From positions 1 through 10,730 of the forward strand of contig DRLF01000052.1 of assembly GCA_011051425.1 (NCBI GenBank): a DNA stretch of 10,730 bases, given 5' to 3'. Positions 2,456 to 10,730 of this stretch are shown here, piece by piece. A program made the translations under genes and the position numbers. Source of the stretch: Thiolapillus brandeum (lineage in GTDB: Bacteria > Pseudomonadota > Gammaproteobacteria > Chromatiales > Chromatiaceae). How positions within the stretch are numbered: position 1 is the first letter of the stretch; each line of letters starts with the position of its first letter. The notes below the pieces were generated by a model. The model searched no databases. It saw only the letters and a program-made list of their open reading frames with translations, and was not told where the DNA came from.

Positions 2456-3241
2456 TTAGTCCAGGTCAGCCAGGGTATATCCCAGTGCCCGTAGCACCAG
2501 GATATCCGGGGTCAGGGTTTCTGCAGGCGGTATGACCAGCGTCGATGACTGACCCAGGGAAGCCCGGGGAAGGTCCTTGAGAGACAGTCTGTCCGCGCGG
2601 GGCTGGTGAATGGCCAGCACCGGCGCCTCATAGATGACGACCCTGTGTCCGACCGGATACCAGCGGCAGAGTTTGTCCACCAGTACCTGCAGTTTGTCTG
2701 TGGTGGTATCGAAACGGGTGCAACTCAGGTCGCCGGTCAGACCGATCTGCCACAGAATCAGCATGGCCGTTGGATCGATCTGCCGTTCATAGACAAGAAA
2801 CTGGGTGGCTTCCATGGAAGTACAGCCTTGCTTGCCCGGATCCATACCCAGGTCGGCGATAAGACAGTCTTCGGCTGAAATGCCGGGTTCCATGCGGGTG
2901 CTGTAGCCTTCAGCGCGCAGTTTTCTGACAGCTGCATGAGGGACGTCGGCAAATACGCCGGGGTGACCGTAAAACACGGCACAAACTTTGTGTCCTTCCT
3001 TCACCGCAGAAACAATGGCGGTTTCCATTTCCCGGTAGGTCTGGCGCCGGTCCTTTTCATCGCCATAATAGATATGCAGGGGCTGCAGGTCGGGTCGAAT
3101 GCCTTCTATCCAGCGGTAGGTGAAGGCATCGGTCATGCAGAAGACTTTGTCGGCCCGCTCGATTTCGCTGATGCTGCGTGCAGAGATATGGCGCCCGAGC
3201 TGAATGCCGCTCCCAACGATGACCAGTGAGCCGGCGGGCAT
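2456..3241 (-). CDS. Borosin-type peptide alpha-N-methyltransferase (split-borosin NMT, SonM/OphMA-like)
   Basis: This 261-residue protein has the tetrapyrrole-methylase (SAM-binding) fold, beginning GSLVIVGSGIQ near the N-terminus. Unlike corrin or porphyrin methylases, it follows the borosin methyltransferases almost motif for motif: YYGDEKDRRQTY (58-69), VFYGHPGVF (89-97), PGISAEDCLIADL (119-131) and VIPPAE near the end. Aligned by eye with OphMA from memory, Y59, R65, Y69 and Y91 correspond to OphMA Tyr66, Arg72, Tyr76 and Tyr98, the residues tied to backbone amide methylation. The chain stops where OphMA continues into its fused binding domain and core, as expected for the split bacterial form that acts on a separate precursor. 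Its likely substrate is the 71-aa protein at 5154-5369. The ATG lies one base beyond the TGA of the GGDEF gene, so the two should be translated together. Confident for family; the product is unproven. Confidence 0.93.
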   Translation of the reverse strand: MPAGSLVIVGSGIQLGRHISARSISEIERADKVFCMTDAFTYRWIEGIRPDLQPLHIYYGDEKDRRQTYREMETAIVSAVKEGHKVCAVFYGHPGVFADVPHAAVRKLRAEGYSTRMEPGISAEDCLIADLGMDPGKQGCTSMEATQFLVYERQIDPTAMLILWQIGLTGDLSCTRFDTTTDKLQVLVDKLCRWYPVGHRVVIYEAPVLAIHQPRADRLSLKDLPRASLGQSSTLVIPPAETLTPDILVLRALGYTLADLD

Positions 3242-3242
3242 C

Positions 3243-4982
3243 TCAGGCCTTTTTCCTGATATTCACATCGTTGTGGGTGATGATCTGGTTTCTTCCCTGG
3301 TTCTTCGCCTCGTAGAGTGCTTCATCCGCCTCGCGAACCAGTATGTCCAGTGCCTTGTATTCTCCATGGCTCACTGCCAGCCCATAGCTGAGGGTCACCT
3401 CGATTTTCTTTCCGAAATCGATCACCGGCCGAATGTCGTTACGGCAGTTTCTGACAATGGCTATCGCGGTCTCGAGATCGGTTTCAGGCAGAAAACAGGT
3501 GAATTCTTCACCTCCGGTGCGCCCGGCGATACCCACCTTTCCAAGATGTTTCTGCAACACACCGGCGATAGCTTGCAGTACCTTGTCGCCAGCCGCGTGG
3601 CCGTAGGTGTCGTTGACCCGTTTGAACCAGTCGATGTCCGCCACCACAACGACAAAGGGCTGTTTTCTGCGCATGCAGCGGTGAAATTCTTCTTCCGCGA
3701 GGGAATAGCAGTAGGCATGGTTGTACAGTCCTGTGAGAGGATCTGTTTGGGATAAATGCCTGAAATGGCTGCTTTCCCGTCGTGCTTTCCTCCATAGCAG
3801 GGCAGTTGCCAGCGCCAGTACAGCCAGGCCAAGGATCAGCAGCCAGGAATGGAGCAGTGTGGATTGCCTTTGCAGGGCAAGCAGCTCATTTTCTTTCTGC
3901 AGCAGATCGATGTGCTGTTCCTTGTTCTTGAACTCGTATTCCACCTGCAGTTTGGCGATTTGCAGGGCCTGGGTTCTGTCCAGGATTCTCTTCTCGGCAA
4001 GAAATCTTTTCTTGAACCAGGTCAGGGCTTCCTGGTGGTTGCCGGATTTTTCGCTGAGTTCAACCTGATAGGCATAGGCATCCTTCAGGGAATTCCATTG
4101 TTCGAGAGATTCAAGGAGGGGAATGACTTCGTCCAGTTTCTGTTGTGCAAGTTTGAATTCCTGCATGGCGATATGGCTCTTGGCTGTGTACAGCAGGCAG
4201 TAGCCTATGCCGATCTTGTATTTTACAGTGCGAAACATCCCCAGCGCCGTGTGCAGTTGACGCAGGGCTTCCTCGTGCCTGTTTTTCTTTTGCAGTGTCA
4301 TGCCAAGTCCCAGATGTCCGCTTGCTACAAACAGAGGGGCAGGTATGGCATTGCATTGCTGAATCATGTCTGTGTCCGTCTGCATGGCCTGGTCCAGCAT
4401 ATCCAGCTTGTAGTAGATCGTGCTAAGTTCATCATGCGCAGTACAAACATTCATCGGGCTGTTTGTTTGTTCAGCTGCTGCCAGTGCCTGTTTGGCATAC
4501 TGCAACGCCTTTTTCAAATCACCTGCGTCGATATACAAATCGGTAGCACTTGAAAGGACGAGGTACTTGATCGTCTTGTTATCTGTCCAAGGCAGGAGCT
4601 GTTGCGCCTGGTTGAGCAGGTCGAAGGCTTTGGTGAAGTTTCCCTGCACGTGATGGATCGTTATTGCTGTTATGTAGGCGCGGATGCGGTACTTGGGGTC
4701 AGCAGAAGAGCCGTCTATCTTGTCGACCAGCTTCAGTGATCCGTTAAAGTCTCCGAGAATGGCCAGATGGCGCAGACGCAGTAAATCAATGGCCGTCTGT
4801 TGTGCGGGTGTGGCCTGATTTTCCAGCGGGCCTATGTCTTGCAGCAGTTTTTCCAGCTGTTGGGTTGGAATCGTATCGATGGGGTCGAGTCCGGCCAGTA
4901 ACTGCTCCAGCGTTTGTGAATAGGCTCCCTGCGTAGTGAGCAGCAGCAGAAAAAAGTAGAGATAAGGTAATAAACGGCGCAC
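3243..4982 (-). CDS. Periplasmic TPR, transmembrane, GGDEF diguanylate cyclase
   Basis: The protein is about 579 residues when read from GTG at 4982. That start gives a clean signal peptide (RRLLPYLYFFLLLLTTQGAYSQ). A TTG at 4997 would add five residues (N-terminus MDIES); neither start has a good ribosome site, and a TGA lies just upstream of the TTG. Residues about 25-335 are TPR-like helical pairs, probably periplasmic. Next come a short coiled coil (335-372), one membrane span (about 376-397) and a cytoplasmic GGDEF domain (about 410-565). It has DPLTGLYN, the metal site VADIDWFKRVND and the active signature RTGGEEF (490-494), so it should make c-di-GMP from GTP. The residues where the RxxD inhibitory site would sit read GKVG, so product inhibition through that site is not expected. 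The TPRs may sense an envelope ligand. Unusually, the gene sits between a borosin precursor and its methyltransferase. Confidence 0.94.
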   Translation of the reverse strand: MRRLLPYLYFFLLLLTTQGAYSQTLEQLLAGLDPIDTIPTQQLEKLLQDIGPLENQATPAQQTAIDLLRLRHLAILGDFNGSLKLVDKIDGSSADPKYRIRAYITAITIHHVQGNFTKAFDLLNQAQQLLPWTDNKTIKYLVLSSATDLYIDAGDLKKALQYAKQALAAAEQTNSPMNVCTAHDELSTIYYKLDMLDQAMQTDTDMIQQCNAIPAPLFVASGHLGLGMTLQKKNRHEEALRQLHTALGMFRTVKYKIGIGYCLLYTAKSHIAMQEFKLAQQKLDEVIPLLESLEQWNSLKDAYAYQVELSEKSGNHQEALTWFKKRFLAEKRILDRTQALQIAKLQVEYEFKNKEQHIDLLQKENELLALQRQSTLLHSWLLILGLAVLALATALLWRKARRESSHFRHLSQTDPLTGLYNHAYCYSLAEEEFHRCMRRKQPFVVVVADIDWFKRVNDTYGHAAGDKVLQAIAGVLQKHLGKVGIAGRTGGEEFTCFLPETDLETAIAIVRNCRNDIRPVIDFGKKIEVTLSYGLAVSHGEYKALDILVREADEALYEAKNQGRNQIITHNDVNIRKKA

Positions 4983-5084
4983 GGATTCTATGTCCAATAT
5001 CGTTCAGAGACTTCTCTGGACAGAAAGAGATGTTTCAGGATATGTCCAAGGAAAGTCTTAAAATCCGTCCATGGTTTTTCAGGA

Positions 5085-5104
5085 GTGGGTTTTCCATTAC
5101 CCAC
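5085..5104 (-). other. Hairpin in the gap between precursor and GGDEF genes
   Basis: A 6-bp perfect stem (GTGGGT at 5085-5090, ACCCAC at 5099-5104) with an 8-nt loop lies about 50 bp after the precursor stop, in the 171-bp leader before the GGDEF gene. There is no U tract behind it, so it is not a standard terminator. It could act as an RNA-processing or partial-attenuation element that keeps precursor mRNA in excess. A weaker imperfect hairpin (AATTGT / ACAATT) lies next to it at about 5108-5128. The same gap holds a 9-bp direct repeat, TATGTCCAA, at 4989-4997 and 5041-5049. Confidence 0.35.
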
Positions 5105-5153
5105 CGAAATTGTTATTGGATCACAATTCCTTATCCTTGAATGTATACCCGGT

Positions 5154-5369
5154 TCATTTGTCGTAGGTTTTGATGACACTCTTGATTTTCTGACAAGAGG
5201 ACAGGCCGGTGGATTCTTCCAGCTTTTCCAGATCACCTTTCCTGAGCAGTTCCATTTCTTCTTTGGACAATCCGGCCTCTTCCATCACTTTTTGCGGATT
5301 CTTTTCGTAAGCTTCTGCAAGATCACTTTCTGCACCCAGGCGTTTCAGCAGTTGTGTGAGTTTGGACAT
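5154..5369 (-). CDS. Split-borosin precursor peptide: BBD plus C-terminal core
   Basis: This 71-residue protein has an ATG behind a good ribosome site. Residues 1-52 are an acidic helical domain with LAEAYEKNPQKVMEEAGL, then SKEEMELLRKGD. By eye this parallels the OphMA segment just before its core (KALADYKAD...LTPQERAALELGD) and the small helical domain of SonA, i.e. a borosin binding domain. Proteins like this are often annotated as LigA-like dioxygenase subunits. After the domain, residues 53-71 (STGLSSCQKIKSVIKTYDK) form a short tail with Ile62, Val65 and Ile66, the kind of hydrophobic or beta-branched residues that borosin enzymes N-methylate. As I recall, SonA is modified at about 63-65. 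The tail also holds one Cys (60). I see no recognisable protease site. The gene is first in a same-strand group with the GGDEF and methyltransferase genes. Family call strong; exact methylated residues are inference. Confidence 0.9.
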   Translation of the reverse strand: MSKLTQLLKRLGAESDLAEAYEKNPQKVMEEAGLSKEEMELLRKGDLEKLEESTGLSSCQKIKSVIKTYDK

Positions 5370-5477: not shown

Positions 5478-5627
5478 TATTTGTTAGAGGTGCTCCCAAG
5501 TAAAAAATGGTGTTTGGTTGCCACTCGTGGTTTTGAGCCTTATTCTGTTTTATCAGACTGTCGCACTACCCTGTGATTTTTGCAAGGCCGACCTGCTGAA
5601 CAACCATTGAGGAGACCCCGAGGGTTT

Positions 5628-6290
5628 TTGAAAGAATCCAGAATAAAGAAGAAGTTGCTGATAGTGGCTGCGTCGGCATCGGTCGTTGTCGCTACGGCAG
5701 CAGGTGTGTATTACTGGGATGCGATGCTGGTGGGTATCGTGGCGGTATTGCTGTGGCTGAAAAAGATGGCGACCCTGAAAGGATTGCTGATTTTGCTCAA
5801 GAAACTGCCTTTTCTGCTGCTGCTGGGTATGAAACGTCTGGTGATCAAGGTAACAAGCCGCTTCCTGCTGTTCAGCGCCCACCTGCGTTTTTACCGGTTG
5901 CAAAGGTTACTGCGTTACCTTCGGGTACGTGCTTATCTGGTAAAAAGACGACTCAAATATCACTGGGGTGATCTCAGTGGTGTGGAGCAGATACTGGCCA
6001 CCGTGGCGGCATTGCCCCTGGTCATCGTACTGTCGGTACTGCTGGTGATCTTCGTATTGCCGAAAGCCGTTTTTTCCTTTCTGGGCAACAAGATCAAGGA
6101 GCATTCCAGTGCTGCGGTGCTCAAGCAGGCGGCGCAATTCGGCGTGAAGGAAAAGCTGCAACTGGCAGACAGGAAGATCAAGGAAAAAATCCGGGAAAAA
6201 CTCCTGCGAAAGCGGCGTGGGCAAGCTGCAGGCGGGAAAACGGAAGACGTTACTGCCGGGGCTGACGATAGAGAACATACAGAGGAGTGA
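5628..6290 (+). CDS. Basic multi-span membrane protein of unknown function
   Basis: I do not recognise this family. Read from TTG at 5628 it has 220 residues. It opens with a Lys-rich start (KESRIKKK) and a hydrophobic span at about 10-30. A second hydrophobic stretch covers 32-44, and another 49-68, interrupted by Lys pairs. A strongly basic amphipathic segment follows (85-111, rich in Arg, Tyr and Leu), then a clear span at about 121-145 and a Lys/Arg/Glu-rich cytoplasmic-looking helix to the end. The frame has no ATG before the first span. TTG codons at 5580, 5607 and 5628 are possible; GAGGAG at 5609-5614 and GAGGG at 5620-5624 lie near the last but with non-ideal spacing, so the start is uncertain. 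The 3' end overlaps the converging MFS gene by 41 bp. The hydrophobic/basic pattern supports a real protein; no function is proposed. Confidence 0.65.
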   Translation: MKESRIKKKLLIVAASASVVVATAAGVYYWDAMLVGIVAVLLWLKKMATLKGLLILLKKLPFLLLLGMKRLVIKVTSRFLLFSAHLRFYRLQRLLRYLRVRAYLVKRRLKYHWGDLSGVEQILATVAALPLVIVLSVLLVIFVLPKAVFSFLGNKIKEHSSAAVLKQAAQFGVKEKLQLADRKIKEKIREKLLRKRRGQAAGGKTEDVTAGADDREHTEE

Positions 6291-7425
6291 CCACCGCTGC
6301 CGCGATATAGCTCCATTGCAGAGCGCCGGGGCCGGCATTGCCTGTTACGTGAAGCAACGCGGCGCCGGCTCCAAAGCCCAGGGCAATGGCTGTCTGGGAG
6401 TAATAGCTTTTCAGGAACAAGTAACGGTGTGCCGAGGTATGTTTCGCCAGGTCGAAGAAGCGCTTGTTGAATGCCAGGCGGAAGAAGGATGTGCAGAAAG
6501 TGATCAGTATCAGCGTGGTGAACAGCCAACCCAGGCTGAGCCGGCTGTCCACCGTGGCCCGTATCAGCCAGGACAGGCAATAGCCGGCGACGGCAATCAT
6601 GTAGATCCGCTGGCTGGGCATGTGGTCGATGCGGTTCTTGATCAGGTAGAACAGGGCGCTGAACGTCAGCCCCAGCAGGATCACCAGCGCCCCCAGTTTC
6701 CAGAAACTTTCGTGAGCGAGAAGAAACAGGGAGATCATCCAGAAATAACTTTCCAGGAACAGGAAGGGACCGTCGAGGAAAAAAACCGGGCGGGAGCCAT
6801 ACGTGTCCCGGAACCGCAGCAGTTCCCCAAATCCCAGGGGTGGATCGTCCCGGAGGTTGGCCGGCAGCTCCATGGGACTGGAAAGCAGAAAGAAAGAGGT
6901 CAGGCCCAGTATCCCGATCAGTGACGAAATCAGGAACACCGACAGATAACCCGCCTTGTCCAGCAGCAGCCCGCCAAACAGCACGCCCATCTTGATAATG
7001 ATGACCACCACCACCTGAAAATTGCCGAACCGCTTGCCGGTGTTGGTATCGTCCAGGGTTTCGTAGAACAGGGCGCGCTGGGTTATCCAGAAGAAGCAGT
7101 TGTATGCGCCATTCACCAGGGCGAACAGGAACAGAAAGCCAGGCTGCTCTTCCAGGAAGACCAGTGCGAGCAAGGTGATTTCGATGAGGAAGGACGCTGC
7201 GATGATGAAGCTAAGCGGCAGTGTCTTGTGTACCCGGTCCCATGCCCACAGGGTCAGTACGAAGCCCACGCCGGTAGTGGCGATAAAACCGCTGATATCA
7301 GCGAGGCTGTATCCGAGTCGCCACAGGAATACCGGGATGAAAAACGGAAACAGGCCGATAAGAAAGGAATGCAGCCCCAGAAAGCGGTAGAAAAGGCGTG
7401 TGGCCGTGGGAAGGCTGGAGGCCAT
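6250..7425 (-). CDS. MFS-type transporter, last gene of the dioxygenase/ATP-grasp operon
   Basis: This 391-residue protein is hydrophobic throughout, with about 12 predicted membrane spans in two halves. A polar central loop at about 185-205 (SSPMELPANLRDDPPLGFG) is as expected for the major facilitator superfamily. A short basic loop after the second span (DRVHK) sits where MFS motif A lies, but the classic form is weak, so the subfamily is unclear. There is no signal peptide, and it would sit in the inner membrane. The ATG overlaps the TGA of the upstream ATP-grasp gene by one base (TGATG), so it is translated with it. By position it is most simply the exporter of whatever the operon makes; import of a precursor cannot be excluded. 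Substrate unknown. Confidence 0.85.
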   Translation of the reverse strand: MASSLPTATRLFYRFLGLHSFLIGLFPFFIPVFLWRLGYSLADISGFIATTGVGFVLTLWAWDRVHKTLPLSFIIAASFLIEITLLALVFLEEQPGFLFLFALVNGAYNCFFWITQRALFYETLDDTNTGKRFGNFQVVVVIIIKMGVLFGGLLLDKAGYLSVFLISSLIGILGLTSFFLLSSPMELPANLRDDPPLGFGELLRFRDTYGSRPVFFLDGPFLFLESYFWMISLFLLAHESFWKLGALVILLGLTFSALFYLIKNRIDHMPSQRIYMIAVAGYCLSWLIRATVDSRLSLGWLFTTLILITFCTSFFRLAFNKRFFDLAKHTSAHRYLFLKSYYSQTAIALGFGAGAALLHVTGNAGPGALQWSYIAAAVVTPLYVLYRQPRQ

Positions 7426-8333
7426 CAGAAAATATCCCGCTGATCGATTTCCAGGGCGTCAAGTCGCTGGAAGTGCGCGCTCAGATCCTCTGGCTTTCCA
7501 TAACGCGGCACGTCATGCATGGCGGTGAAAGGGCGGGAGTTCACTTCCAGGAAGATGCATTTCTGCTCGTTCCAGGGAGTCTCAATGCCGTCCTCCATGA
7601 TCACGTCGATGCCGAGGATGTTGGCTCTGAAGAGCTTCAGTATGCGGAGAAATAGTGTCCGGTTGACAGGTGGAAGGCTGTCAGCGGGGAGGGTTTCCAC
7701 AACGCCGCCGGGCGCGAGGGAGATGCGATTGAAAAGGATGATCTCCCGGTTTTCTTCAGGAATGGATGCGAGGCTCAGTCCCTGCTTTTTCAGATAGCGT
7801 CTTATCATGCGGGTTTTCGGTATGGGATGAATCACGGGATACAGTCCCATGTCCTTTCTCACCTGGTTTTCACGGTCGATGAGTTCGCCGATGCTGGCTG
7901 TACCGTCACCGGTCACGAATGGCGGGTAGCGCCGGATCACGGAAATGATTTCACCGTTTCCCACCAGTACCCGGTAATTCCTGCCCTGCAGGTATTTTTC
8001 GACCACCGACATGGGCCACCAGGTCTTCACCATCAGTGCTGCTTTCCACAGCTCGCGGTAGTTGCGGATAGGGAAATGACTGCCGCGGGAGAAACCCGAT
8101 ACGTTGGGTTTGATCACCAGGGGGAAACCGTGCTGTTGTGCAAAACGGTGAGCCTGCCAGGGACTGAAAAAGATTTTTCCTTCGGCGTGAGGAATGCTAT
8201 TTGCCGCGAACACCTCCCTGGCCTGCGCCTTGGAGCGGCAACTCTTGCGCACGTCAAGGGAGTTGTAGCTGGTGCAGCCGTGGAGGAACAGCCGGTCGAT
8301 CCAGGCATAGAGGGTCTTCTTCAGGAATTTCAT
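7425..8333 (-). CDS. ATP-grasp ligase (CphA/GshAB-like ATP-grasp domain)
   Basis: This is a 302-residue ATP-grasp enzyme. YNSLDVRKSCRSK at about 23-35 matches the helix that opens such domains. VIKPNVSGFSRG (73-84) supplies the nucleotide-binding Lys75, VVEKYLQGRNYRVLV (110-124) the hinge, and RRYPPFVTGDGTASIGELID (134-153) is the segment shared with cyanophycin synthetases and the GshAB ATP-grasp domain. GIDV (Asp243) and FLEVNSRP (Glu263, Asn265) supply the Mg ligands. Such enzymes join a carboxylate to an amine through an acyl phosphate, using ATP. The ATG at 8333 overlaps the previous stop in ATGA; the frame is open for 52 codons further upstream, but those lie inside the preceding gene. 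Substrates are unknown; an amine such as hypotaurine as acceptor is inferred from the neighbours. Confidence 0.9.
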   Translation of the reverse strand: MKFLKKTLYAWIDRLFLHGCTSYNSLDVRKSCRSKAQAREVFAANSIPHAEGKIFFSPWQAHRFAQQHGFPLVIKPNVSGFSRGSHFPIRNYRELWKAALMVKTWWPMSVVEKYLQGRNYRVLVGNGEIISVIRRYPPFVTGDGTASIGELIDRENQVRKDMGLYPVIHPIPKTRMIRRYLKKQGLSLASIPEENREIILFNRISLAPGGVVETLPADSLPPVNRTLFLRILKLFRANILGIDVIMEDGIETPWNEQKCIFLEVNSRPFTAMHDVPRYGKPEDLSAHFQRLDALEIDQRDIF

Positions 8334-9136
8334 GCGCGCATCCTGCTGTTGAGAAACAGCATGGGCCAGAAGATGTTCTTGCGGGGCTGTTTCAGGGGAA
8401 CGGACTTCGTCAGCAGCGCGAGGTCGCGCATGGCAGAACGGATGAACCGGTGATGCGCCCGGAAAGGTATGTTCGTGTCCAGCAGGCACAGTGGCATGGG
8501 GACGAACAGATTGATCTCGATGATCCGGAACTGCCCTTCCAGTACGGCTTCGAAACTGTCCGCATGCAGTCCGACGCGGGCAATGCGGAAGGCGGGCAGT
8601 TCATTCATGTATTGCCACAGCTGCTGCTGCGCTTCCTGTGTAAGACCGGTGACCGTCCTGTGGCGGGTCGACGGATTGAGGATGCTGTTGACCGGCCAGT
8701 CCTGTCCGCTGCTGTTGAGGGTTTCGGTCACGGAGAGCACTGCCGGTTGGGAACCGGATGCTTTGCGGCGGATATAGAACACTTCGAATTCGCGCCTGCC
8801 CGGGGCTGCTTCCTGAAACAGGTAGGGAATGTCACCGTTGAGCATGTTGTTGCGGAGCTTGTCGAAGCAACCCTGGTCGTTGGCAACCAGGATGCCTCTC
8901 GCGTTCTGTCCCCATTCGGGTTTGAGAAACACCGGCCAGCTTTCCGGCTTGCTGTCAGGGGTGAGTTTTTCCTGGTGCAGGCGCCATTTGCCGGGAATGC
9001 TGCTGTCCATTTCCAGCTTGGAGAACAGCCGCTTGCTGCTGCTGAACCAGGGAGCGTTCAGCTGGAAATAACGCCAGGGGCGGGCGCCGATGCGCAGGCA
9101 CCAGAACATGTACCAGAAGACCAGACGGATGCGCAT
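8330..9136 (-). CDS. ATP-grasp-like protein, divergent
   Basis: This 268-residue protein has a less conserved ATP-grasp core. WPVFLKPEWGQNARGI at 67-82 supplies the nucleotide Lys72. FQEAAPGRREFEVFYIR (107-123) looks like the hinge plus the beta strand that holds ATP, and RVGLHADSFEAVLEG...RIIEINLFVPMP (187-215) carries Asp193, Glu207 and Asn209 as expected metal ligands. The first 40 residues are aromatic and basic (FWYMFWCLRIGARPWRYF) and could lie on the membrane. It differs strongly from the second ATP-grasp protein next to it, so the pair is not a recent duplication; they probably act on different substrates or in consecutive steps. It starts two bases after the stop of the dioxygenase gene and ends in ATGA overlap with the next. 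Function unproven. Confidence 0.76.
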   Translation of the reverse strand: MRIRLVFWYMFWCLRIGARPWRYFQLNAPWFSSSKRLFSKLEMDSSIPGKWRLHQEKLTPDSKPESWPVFLKPEWGQNARGILVANDQGCFDKLRNNMLNGDIPYLFQEAAPGRREFEVFYIRRKASGSQPAVLSVTETLNSSGQDWPVNSILNPSTRHRTVTGLTQEAQQQLWQYMNELPAFRIARVGLHADSFEAVLEGQFRIIEINLFVPMPLCLLDTNIPFRAHHRFIRSAMRDLALLTKSVPLKQPRKNIFWPMLFLNSRMRA

Positions 9137-9138
9137 TG

Positions 9139-9630
9139 TCAGGTGAAGGCTTTCCCTTTCAGGGCGTCGTCGGAATAGACGTGCAGGCTGAGGCTGGGAG
9201 ACAGCGCGGTTACGCGATGAATGGCATTGTTGTAGCGGTTTGCATCGCCGGCGGCGTAGATGTGTTGCCCCTTGTTCCTGATGACAGTTTCCGTCAGCAA
9301 CAGACCCTGGTCCGTTTCGCGATAGTGCTCCATCTGCAGCTGTCCTTCCAGTACATAGACAAATGCAAACTGGGGGTGTCCGTGGACAGGCGTCACAGCA
9401 CCCTGATCCCAGCGGGCGACCATGACTTCTGCCCCATTGTCTTCGCGGAGCAGAATGTTGCGGGAATAGCAGTGTGGCGCATGGGGGAAATCCCCCTGCA
9501 GCCTGAAGCGGGCACTGAGCGTCAGCAGGCGTGCTTCGTCATCCAGCCCTGCAATGAGATCACGCAAAAGGACCCGGGTGTCGTCCGGCAGGTTGGCCAG
9601 GGTATGTGTTTCAGCCTTGCAGGTGTTCAT
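9139..9630 (-). CDS. Cysteine dioxygenase-type thiol dioxygenase (cupin)
   Basis: This 163-residue protein has the type I cysteine dioxygenase fold. The sequence holds a first cupin motif with His83 and His85 (VTPVHGHPQFAFVYVLEG) and a second with His138 (NAIHRVTA); these correspond to iron ligands His86, His88 and His140 of mammalian enzymes. SRNILLRED (Arg57) fits the carboxylate-binding Arg60, and SLSLHVYSDD (Tyr152) the catalytic Tyr157. The Cys that is crosslinked to this Tyr in mammals is Phe90 here, as in many bacterial enzymes that lack it. The expected reaction is cysteine plus O2 to cysteine sulfinate; other thiols such as 3-mercaptopropionate are possible. It overlaps the PLP decarboxylase gene by 20 bp, and that partner would turn the sulfinate into hypotaurine. 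Confidence 0.88.
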   Translation of the reverse strand: MNTCKAETHTLANLPDDTRVLLRDLIAGLDDEARLLTLSARFRLQGDFPHAPHCYSRNILLREDNGAEVMVARWDQGAVTPVHGHPQFAFVYVLEGQLQMEHYRETDQGLLLTETVIRNKGQHIYAAGDANRYNNAIHRVTALSPSLSLHVYSDDALKGKAFT

Positions 9631-10730
9631 GCATCAGCTCCTTGCCGGCGGCTACCAGGTTGCTGAAAAAGCTGTCCACATCAGCACGGGAATAGTCGGG
9701 ATGGGTAATCAGCAGCCTCAGGGTCAGTTTTTCCTCGATATAGGCGATGCCTACCAGGCTGATACCCTGCTTGAACAGCCGGTTGCGCAGTTCCAGGTTG
9801 AATTCATTGGCGGGTATGTTTTCCGGTGTCCTGAAGTGAAAGCAGACATTGAAGGATTCACGGGGTACGGTCATCTCCAGTTCCGGGATGCCATGCACAA
9901 CCTGCTCCGCGTATTCGCTCAGGGCGAGATAATGGCGTATGCGCTCAGCCAGGCCTTTCTTGCCGAAAAACTTCCAGTCGAGAAACCATTTCAGGCTGTC
10001 CACGCGGCGGCCGCACTGCAGGGAGGCGGTGCCCATGTCCAGTTCTGCATTCTTGTCCTCTTCGCGGAACAGGTAGCTGTGCTCTCCCGCGCTGCAGACA
10101 CAGCGCAGAGTGCCCCGGTGATGATTGAACAGCAGCACATTGCACATCAGATTGGTGCCGGCCATCTTGTGGAAGTCCCAGGTGAAGGAATCCAGCTGTT
10201 CGATGCCGGGAAGGAAATGCTTTTTCAGTTCATCGTCGAGCAGGGCAGCGCCGCCCCAGGCGCCATCGCCGTGCAGCCAGAAGCCGTATTTTTCCCGCAG
10301 TTCCACGAGTGGGGGAAGCGAATCATAAGCGCCCCTGACGGTGGTTCCGAGGGTGGCGCAGACAAAGAAAGGGATTTTTCCATTTTGACTGTGCTGTTGC
10401 AGAAGACGTTCCAGTGCCTGGGGCTGCATGCGACCGTGTTCGTCAACGGGCACCTTGACGAGGTTGTGAGTGCCCAGCCCCAGAATATTGGCCGCCTTGT
10501 CCAGGGAGTAGTGGGCATCGGCGGATACGAAGGCAAGCAGGGGGCTGTGGCCGAACAGGCCCTGTTCCTTGCCGGTTTCGATCGCCTGATTGCGTGCGGC
10601 GAGCATGGCAATCATGTTCCCGTTGCTGGAGCCCGTGGTCATCTGGCCTTCACCTTCTCCAAATCCGGCCAGATCCAGCATGGTATCGAGCATGTAATGC
10701 TCCATCAGCGTGGAAACCGGTGCGCCTTCA
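9611..10730 (-). CDS. Group II PLP-dependent decarboxylase (GAD/cysteine sulfinate decarboxylase type), 5' end outside window
   Basis: The frame is open to the right edge, so the N-terminus is missing; the first visible Met at 10705 lies inside the fold. Diagnostic parts of the glutamate/aromatic amino acid/cysteine sulfinate decarboxylase family are present. They include the glycine-rich loop MTTGSSNGNMIAMLAARNQ (cf. TSGGSEANLxAL), the HYS cofactor-stacking segment (ADAHYSLDKAA), HGDGAWGG (Asp pairing with the pyridine N), and DFHKMAG with the Schiff-base Lys (codon 10166-10168). GTASLQCGRRVDSLKWFLDWK matches the QCGR region of acidic amino acid decarboxylases. Substrate cannot be read off reliably: cysteine sulfinate, cysteate, aspartate or glutamate. 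The dioxygenase directly behind it favours cysteine sulfinate, giving hypotaurine. It is the first seen gene of the operon. Confidence 0.93.
   Translation of the reverse strand, partial: EGAPVSTLMEHYMLDTMLDLAGFGEGEGQMTTGSSNGNMIAMLAARNQAIETGKEQGLFGHSPLLAFVSADAHYSLDKAANILGLGTHNLVKVPVDEHGRMQPQALERLLQQHSQNGKIPFFVCATLGTTVRGAYDSLPPLVELREKYGFWLHGDGAWGGAALLDDELKKHFLPGIEQLDSFTWDFHKMAGTNLMCNVLLFNHHRGTLRCVCSAGEHSYLFREEDKNAELDMGTASLQCGRRVDSLKWFLDWKFFGKKGLAERIRHYLALSEYAEQVVHGIPELEMTVPRESFNVCFHFRTPENIPANEFNLELRNRLFKQGISLVGIAYIEEKLTLRLLITHPDYSRADVDSFFSNLVAAGKELMHEHLQG

Follow-up and report, generated by a model that had tools for sequence, protein, structure and literature searches.

The Three-Gene Locus

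Contig DRLF01000052.1, analysed at its full length of 10,730 nucleotides (hereafter, the window) and representing one entire contig of the source genome, harbors a minus-strand unit that is almost beyond doubt a type IV split borosin cluster, i.e., one in which the peptide precursor and the alpha-N-methyltransferase are encoded by separate genes. According to the open reading frame (ORF) list, the unit comprises genes for a precursor of 71 amino acids (aa; positions 5154-5369), a membrane sensor of 584 aa (3243-4997), and a methyltransferase of 261 aa (2456-3241). The closest named relatives of their proteins belong to Thiolapillus, a gammaproteobacterial genus of Sedimenticolaceae.

The sequence-only reading had proposed a split borosin cluster consisting of the 261-aa and 71-aa proteins, the latter encoded 1.9 kb upstream on the same strand. 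Both ORFs are present at these positions with plausible-looking ribosome-binding sites (as judged by eye), and the spacing between the precursor stop and the methyltransferase start is correct; what was overlooked is the 584-aa gene occupying the interval. The stop codon of the latter meets the methyltransferase start as TGA-G-ATG, with a single base between the stop and the ATG; hence, the unit is made up of three genes. Its neighbors are BatD (421-2355) in convergent orientation and a hypothetical gene (5580-6290) in divergent orientation.

Methyltransferase and Precursor

The methyltransferase (2456-3241, minus strand; METHYLTRANSFERASE) is SonM-like: its best match in the PDB is SonM (7ltc_A, E 1.9e-75 over residues 4-259), followed by dbOphM (1.5e-46), OphMA (about 6e-46), and MroMA1 (3.5e-42), and all PDB matches at E < 1e-40 are borosin methyltransferases (SonM, dbOphM, OphMA, MroMA). 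The residues Y59, R65, Y69, and Y91, earlier assigned to the catalytic positions, are invariant in a 19-sequence alignment of homologs and lie opposite Y58, R67, Y71, and Y93 of SonM in a profile alignment read by eye. The Pfam family of the protein is the broad TP_methylase family, so one might think of a cobalamin or siroheme methylase residing next to an unrelated small ORF. This explanation is exceedingly improbable: the NCBIfam cobalamin/precorrin models reach no more than 12-17 bits, far short of their cut-offs (163-391), the best PDB relatives are SonM and OphMA, and the small ORF encodes a conserved SonA-like protein. A cobalamin or siroheme methylase was thus rejected.

The precursor gene (5154-5369, minus strand) is single-copy in its own genome (search at E up to 10) and belongs to a family aligned here with 47 sequences. 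Its product matches SonA (7ltc_B) with E 3.4e-8 over residues 1-61. In SonA, as described in the accessible part of PMC8429565, residues 1-53 form the leader, or borosin binding domain (BBD), residues 54-61 the linker, and residues 62-71 the core, methylated at L63 and I65. By analogy, the leader of the precursor would span residues 1-53 (5211-5369, minus strand), and the putative core, assigned by its position relative to SonA, would be IKSVIKTYDK (residues 62-71; 5157-5186, minus strand); the precursors of many relatives finish in a similar IKAYD-like stretch. The structural model (predicted local distance difference test, pLDDT, 72.8) features five helices (3-13, 15-23, 25-31, 36-44, and 47-54) and none past residue 54, in line with the BBD-like helical domain and the short C-terminal tail recognized from the sequence. 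In the Foldseek search with this model, the top 30 PDB rows are SonM-SonA entries (E 0.012-0.31, none below 0.001; TMq 0.62-0.71). Neither the SonM nor the SonA match is attributable to chance. The matches to SonM and SonA, the fold, and the co-occurrence of the two genes (see below) support the assignment of a separate precursor and methyltransferase to a split borosin. Two other candidates for the precursor were weak, and SonA fits better: an Os1348-type NHLP protein (NF038399; 20.4 bits, cut-off 40) and a LigA subunit (18.8 bits, cut-off 25.3). Folds of the LigA type are said in the accessible part of PMC8429565 to resemble the SonA leader.

The likeness to SonM/SonA of Shewanella oneidensis, as far as the accessible part of PMC8429565 describes it, extends to the separate methyltransferase of about 260 aa, the 71-aa precursor with a five-helix leader and a short C-terminal core, and the same catalytic residues. 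The differences are the core itself and the 584-aa gene intervening here between the two genes. According to the same part of that source, no type IV borosin pathway had been tied to a final natural product by 2021. In the Shewanella relatives found in this work (L078, L091, L095, and L097), the order is methyltransferase-precursor-sensor, with an ORF encoding a GGDEF domain behind the precursor. A product of a Shewanella borosin has reportedly been the subject of a later paper.

The TPR-Membrane-GGDEF Sensor

The 584-aa gene (3243-4997, minus strand; TTG start at 4997, with GTG at 4982 as an alternative) encodes a diguanylate cyclase that matches TPR families and GGDEF (E 1.9e-41) in Pfam. 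In its model (pLDDT 91.8), TPR helices at residues 45-317 are followed by one helix, 321-417, and then by the GGDEF domain. The TPR superhelix (4047-4865) is predicted to be periplasmic. The hydrophobic segment ahead of GGDEF, situated within the long helix, is a predicted membrane helix (about residues 385-402; 3792-3845). The N-terminus looks signal-peptide-like by eye, yet stays under the hydropathy threshold; the N-terminal and pre-GGDEF segments both pass this threshold in 71 of 86 precursor-sensor pairings. The GGDEF domain (3285-3749) possesses an intact GG[DE]EF motif in the form of GGEEF (3501-3515) and lacks an RxxD I-site.

The TPR fold search returned Rap rows at the top, with unrelated peptide-binding TPR proteins within about 1.5 Z; by profile, the latter outscore Rap. 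The receptors of the RRNPP family are soluble cytosolic proteins with a peptide-binding TPR superhelix and a Rap or DNA-binding output. Unlike these (Rap, NprR), the sensor is predicted to be membrane-anchored and has a GGDEF output; identity in the top TPR rows amounts to about 9-14%. The ligand proposed below would also differ in being backbone N-methylated, and its precursor has no recognized secretion signal.

Precursor and Sensor Stay Together among Relatives

The gene neighborhoods were compared in 83 loci, namely the window, five congener loci, and 80 genome contigs, minus three duplicates; the 80 contigs were selected, among the matches listed, by similarity of the methyltransferase and not of GGDEF. 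The precursor was recognized in 79 loci; in the other four, the methyltransferase starts at most 868 bases from the contig start. According to a TPR profile, a TPR sensor ORF starts no more than 800 bases downstream of the precursor in all 79 loci and for 89 of 92 precursors; the three precursors lacking a downstream sensor (L076, L096, L105) are additional ones, whose loci hold another pair. At first look, GGDEF was missing from three of the 79 loci, where either GGDEF is divergent (L068), the sensor is a TPR hybrid histidine kinase (L073), or the contig ends within the TPR ORF (L098). Since the TPR profile was derived from linked GGDEF sensors, these three represent independent cases. With 27 GGDEF matches each in the window's own genome and in Thiolapillus brandeum, repeated adjacency of precursor and GGDEF by chance is unlikely. 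The TPR-GGDEF sensor is the most constant neighbor of the precursor and very probably its integral partner.

The position of the methyltransferase is more variable. The order of the window, precursor-sensor-methyltransferase, was found in 18 of the 79 loci, and the sensor lies between the two other genes in the four congener loci free of a contig-end cut. In 23 more loci of this order, the sensor and the methyltransferase share one frame, so GGDEF-methyltransferase fusions occur naturally among the relatives. These fusions, along with the translational coupling via TGA-G-ATG in the window, could be taken to mean that the methyltransferase-precursor complex or the fusion controls GGDEF dimerization inside the cell, or that cyclic di-GMP (c-di-GMP) controls methylation, the free peptide being no ligand at all; that borosin methyltransferases act as dimers (PMC11285071, accessible part) is also compatible with this. 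Such intracellular coupling seems unlikely, as in 35 of the 79 loci, ordered methyltransferase-precursor-sensor, the methyltransferase is unfused and separated from the sensor by the precursor. It is also at odds with the histidine kinase outputs and with a precursor-sensor pair of T. brandeum lacking a linked methyltransferase (see below for both). Many loci (L070-L111) contain a second group of precursors with long, acidic, Glu/Asp-rich C-terminal tails, often in the methyltransferase-precursor-sensor order.

In the genus Thiolapillus, the methyltransferase was found in 6 of 15 genomes, five of which also possess the precursor and a strong TPR match, while the sixth (G009) is cut at a contig end. 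Apart from this contig-cut genome, the methyltransferase and the precursor co-occur. A small protein always found without the methyltransferase, which in the sequence-only reading would have spoken against a borosin, was not observed, and neither were cobalamin or siroheme methylases as the best matches. None of the three (methyltransferase, precursor, or strong TPR match) was detected in the other nine genomes; five of them show methyltransferase matches (4e-5 to 8e-4) confined to about 120 residues within longer ORFs, which were left uncounted. Comparison of sequences and models supports the view that the precursor, the methyltransferase, and the TPR-GGDEF protein are inherited as a unit.

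A telling exception is found in T. brandeum (G007). Its locus L126 shares the flanks of the window (the genes for a pyridoxal phosphate (PLP) decarboxylase, a cupin, two ATP-grasp proteins, an MFS transporter, and a hypothetical protein on one side, BatD on the other) and keeps the precursor and the sensor; the methyltransferase is reduced to a remnant of 20 codons (L126:9230-9289, 70% identity) between the intact sensor and BatD. The sole methyltransferase of this genome lies at a distance of about 0.73 Mb, next to another precursor-sensor pair, and presumably serves both precursors. The precursor is linked to a particular sensor and, in this instance, the link is tighter than that with its own methyltransferase.

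These observations also bear on the possibility that the cluster yields a secreted natural product directed at a different target, with the cyclase regulating its production or sensing something else without binding the peptide. This explanation deserves consideration as a less probable one. Clusters can be regulated by neighboring sensor kinases and cyclases, and the evolution of the core tracks that of the methyltransferase in a mirror-tree comparison. The support from this comparison is mild; GGDEF changes more slowly than TPR, for which reason the mirror-tree contrast may reflect resolution. The comparison comprised 80 pairs (omitting L067 with its aberrant motif, L058, and all tandem-array precursors but the one nearest its sensor) and a 39-row subset (further omitting precursors above 80 aa and L078, L082, L085, L091, L095, L097, L105, L107, and L109). 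Among fungal borosins, bioactive products are known, e.g., omphalotin (PMC11285071, accessible part). Against a secreted product with another target, the sensor remains beside the precursor though the gene order and the methyltransferase position vary, extra precursors usually bring their own sensors, and T. brandeum has retained a precursor and sensor after loss of the methyltransferase beside them. Besides, neither a shared exporter nor an immunity family was seen among ORFs of at least 120 aa within about 7.5 kb in the 83 loci. A conserved protease was not seen among these ORFs either. The largest non-cluster family near the borosin genes is present in 13 of the 83 loci and is GNAT-like by eye; these acetyltransferases (e.g., L084:7776-8327) occur mostly in methyltransferase-precursor-sensor loci.

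In a sample of 369 genomes of the class, the methyltransferase (E ≤ 1e-15) was detected in ten. Three genomes of the sample display a strong TPR match (<1e-70), all with the methyltransferase, and a fourth has a linked kinase sensor. Near the methyltransferase of the remaining six genomes, a sensor of this kind was not seen, nor, in five of these, a precursor; the sixth (L176) shows a weak precursor-like match near the methyltransferase. The precursor-sensor pairing is a mark of one clade rather than of borosins in general.

Precursor-like matches (E 1e-7 to 1e-3) were also noted in eight genomes of this sample without a methyltransferase match (G088, G205, G234, G328, G345, G415, G423, and G439); around the match in G088, the one inspected and located near a contig end, neither a sensor nor a methyltransferase was seen.

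Output Swap and Cysteine Pair

The sensor output is usually GGDEF, but a TPR hybrid histidine kinase follows a borosin-type precursor at three sites of the wider locus set (L169:7477-10446, L171:7871-11128, and L073:8318-12091). The L169 sensor is a TPR-HisKA-HATPase-receiver protein of 990 aa, and the other two are longer. The constant element beside the precursor is the TPR portion.

The TPR superhelix of the window's sensor contains Cys185 (4443-4445) and Cys215 (4353-4355), placed by the model in neighboring helices. Both are invariant in a set of 33 and in all 80 aligned linked GGDEF sensors; the pair recurs in 84 of 85 linked ORFs and, among the three kinases, in that of L169 but not in those of L073 and L171. 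In contrast, both cysteines are missing in all 13 unlinked homologs aligned at both columns, whereas a fourteenth (L145), covered at one column, has Cys there; the classification of these homologs as unlinked is based on the precursor profile, which gave no match at their places. Among ten further TPR matches within the 83 loci that are not directly behind a detected precursor, eight have the pair, and the other two do not align at both columns.

A Possible Peptide Signaling Module

Since a membrane sensor accompanies the precursor in nearly all the relatives examined, split borosins may act as signals. The interpretation favored here, at somewhat below even chances, is that the type IV split borosin cluster works as a peptide signaling module; binding of the N-methylated peptide to the neighboring sensor as its ligand is, if anything, a shade more tentative, and it is this signaling step that we infer. 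The methyltransferase would bind the helical leader in the cytosol and methylate backbone amides of the C-terminal core, which a general protease would then release. The methylated, more membrane-permeable peptide could get to the periplasm without a dedicated exporter and bind the TPR superhelix of the adjacent sensor. Binding would shift GGDEF dimerization via the long membrane-spanning helix and thereby change c-di-GMP. A hybrid histidine kinase would take the place of the cyclase downstream of the TPR sensor in a few relatives.

More speculatively still, the relatives may represent a class of Gram-negative peptide signaling in which an N-methylated, membrane-permeable ribosomal peptide is perceived by a dedicated periplasmic TPR receptor resembling Rap, usually with a Cys pair, whose output can be swapped between a diguanylate cyclase and a hybrid histidine kinase. 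If the signaling interpretation is true, the split borosins of this clade would be autoinducers, not antibiotics, and Gram-negative bacteria would possess a ribosomal backbone-methylated peptide signal along with a reason for N-methylation, namely aiding membrane passage.

GGDEF is already in print among the borosin architectures, being named as their element in the Figure 1 legend of PMC11395268; the accessible part of that paper gives no TPR sensor, GGDEF role, or signaling link. The TPR receptor pairing, the output swap, and the Cys pair were not found in the literature searched, whose scope did not include key subscription papers, and the sensor pairing is not claimed to be unpublished.

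Other Features of the Window

The remaining genes of the window (the MFS transporter, two ATP-grasp proteins, cupin, PLP decarboxylase, the hypothetical gene 5580-6290, and BatD) were rejected as members of the cluster because the three-gene unit at T. brandeum locus L029 is found without a match to any of them. No Rfam match was obtained, and the promoter scan, with one site compared to 2.4 on average in shuffled sequences, carries no information. Positions 1-128 harbor 14.2 perfect copies of a 9-base unit, AGAATCAGC.

Positions 6250-10705 (minus strand) are occupied by a compact run of genes for an MFS transporter, two ATP-grasp-like proteins (one of them cyanophycin-synthetase-like), a cupin/cysteine-dioxygenase-like protein, and a PLP decarboxylase. 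This run stays together in L026, L030, and L126 and is possibly a separate small biosynthetic cluster.
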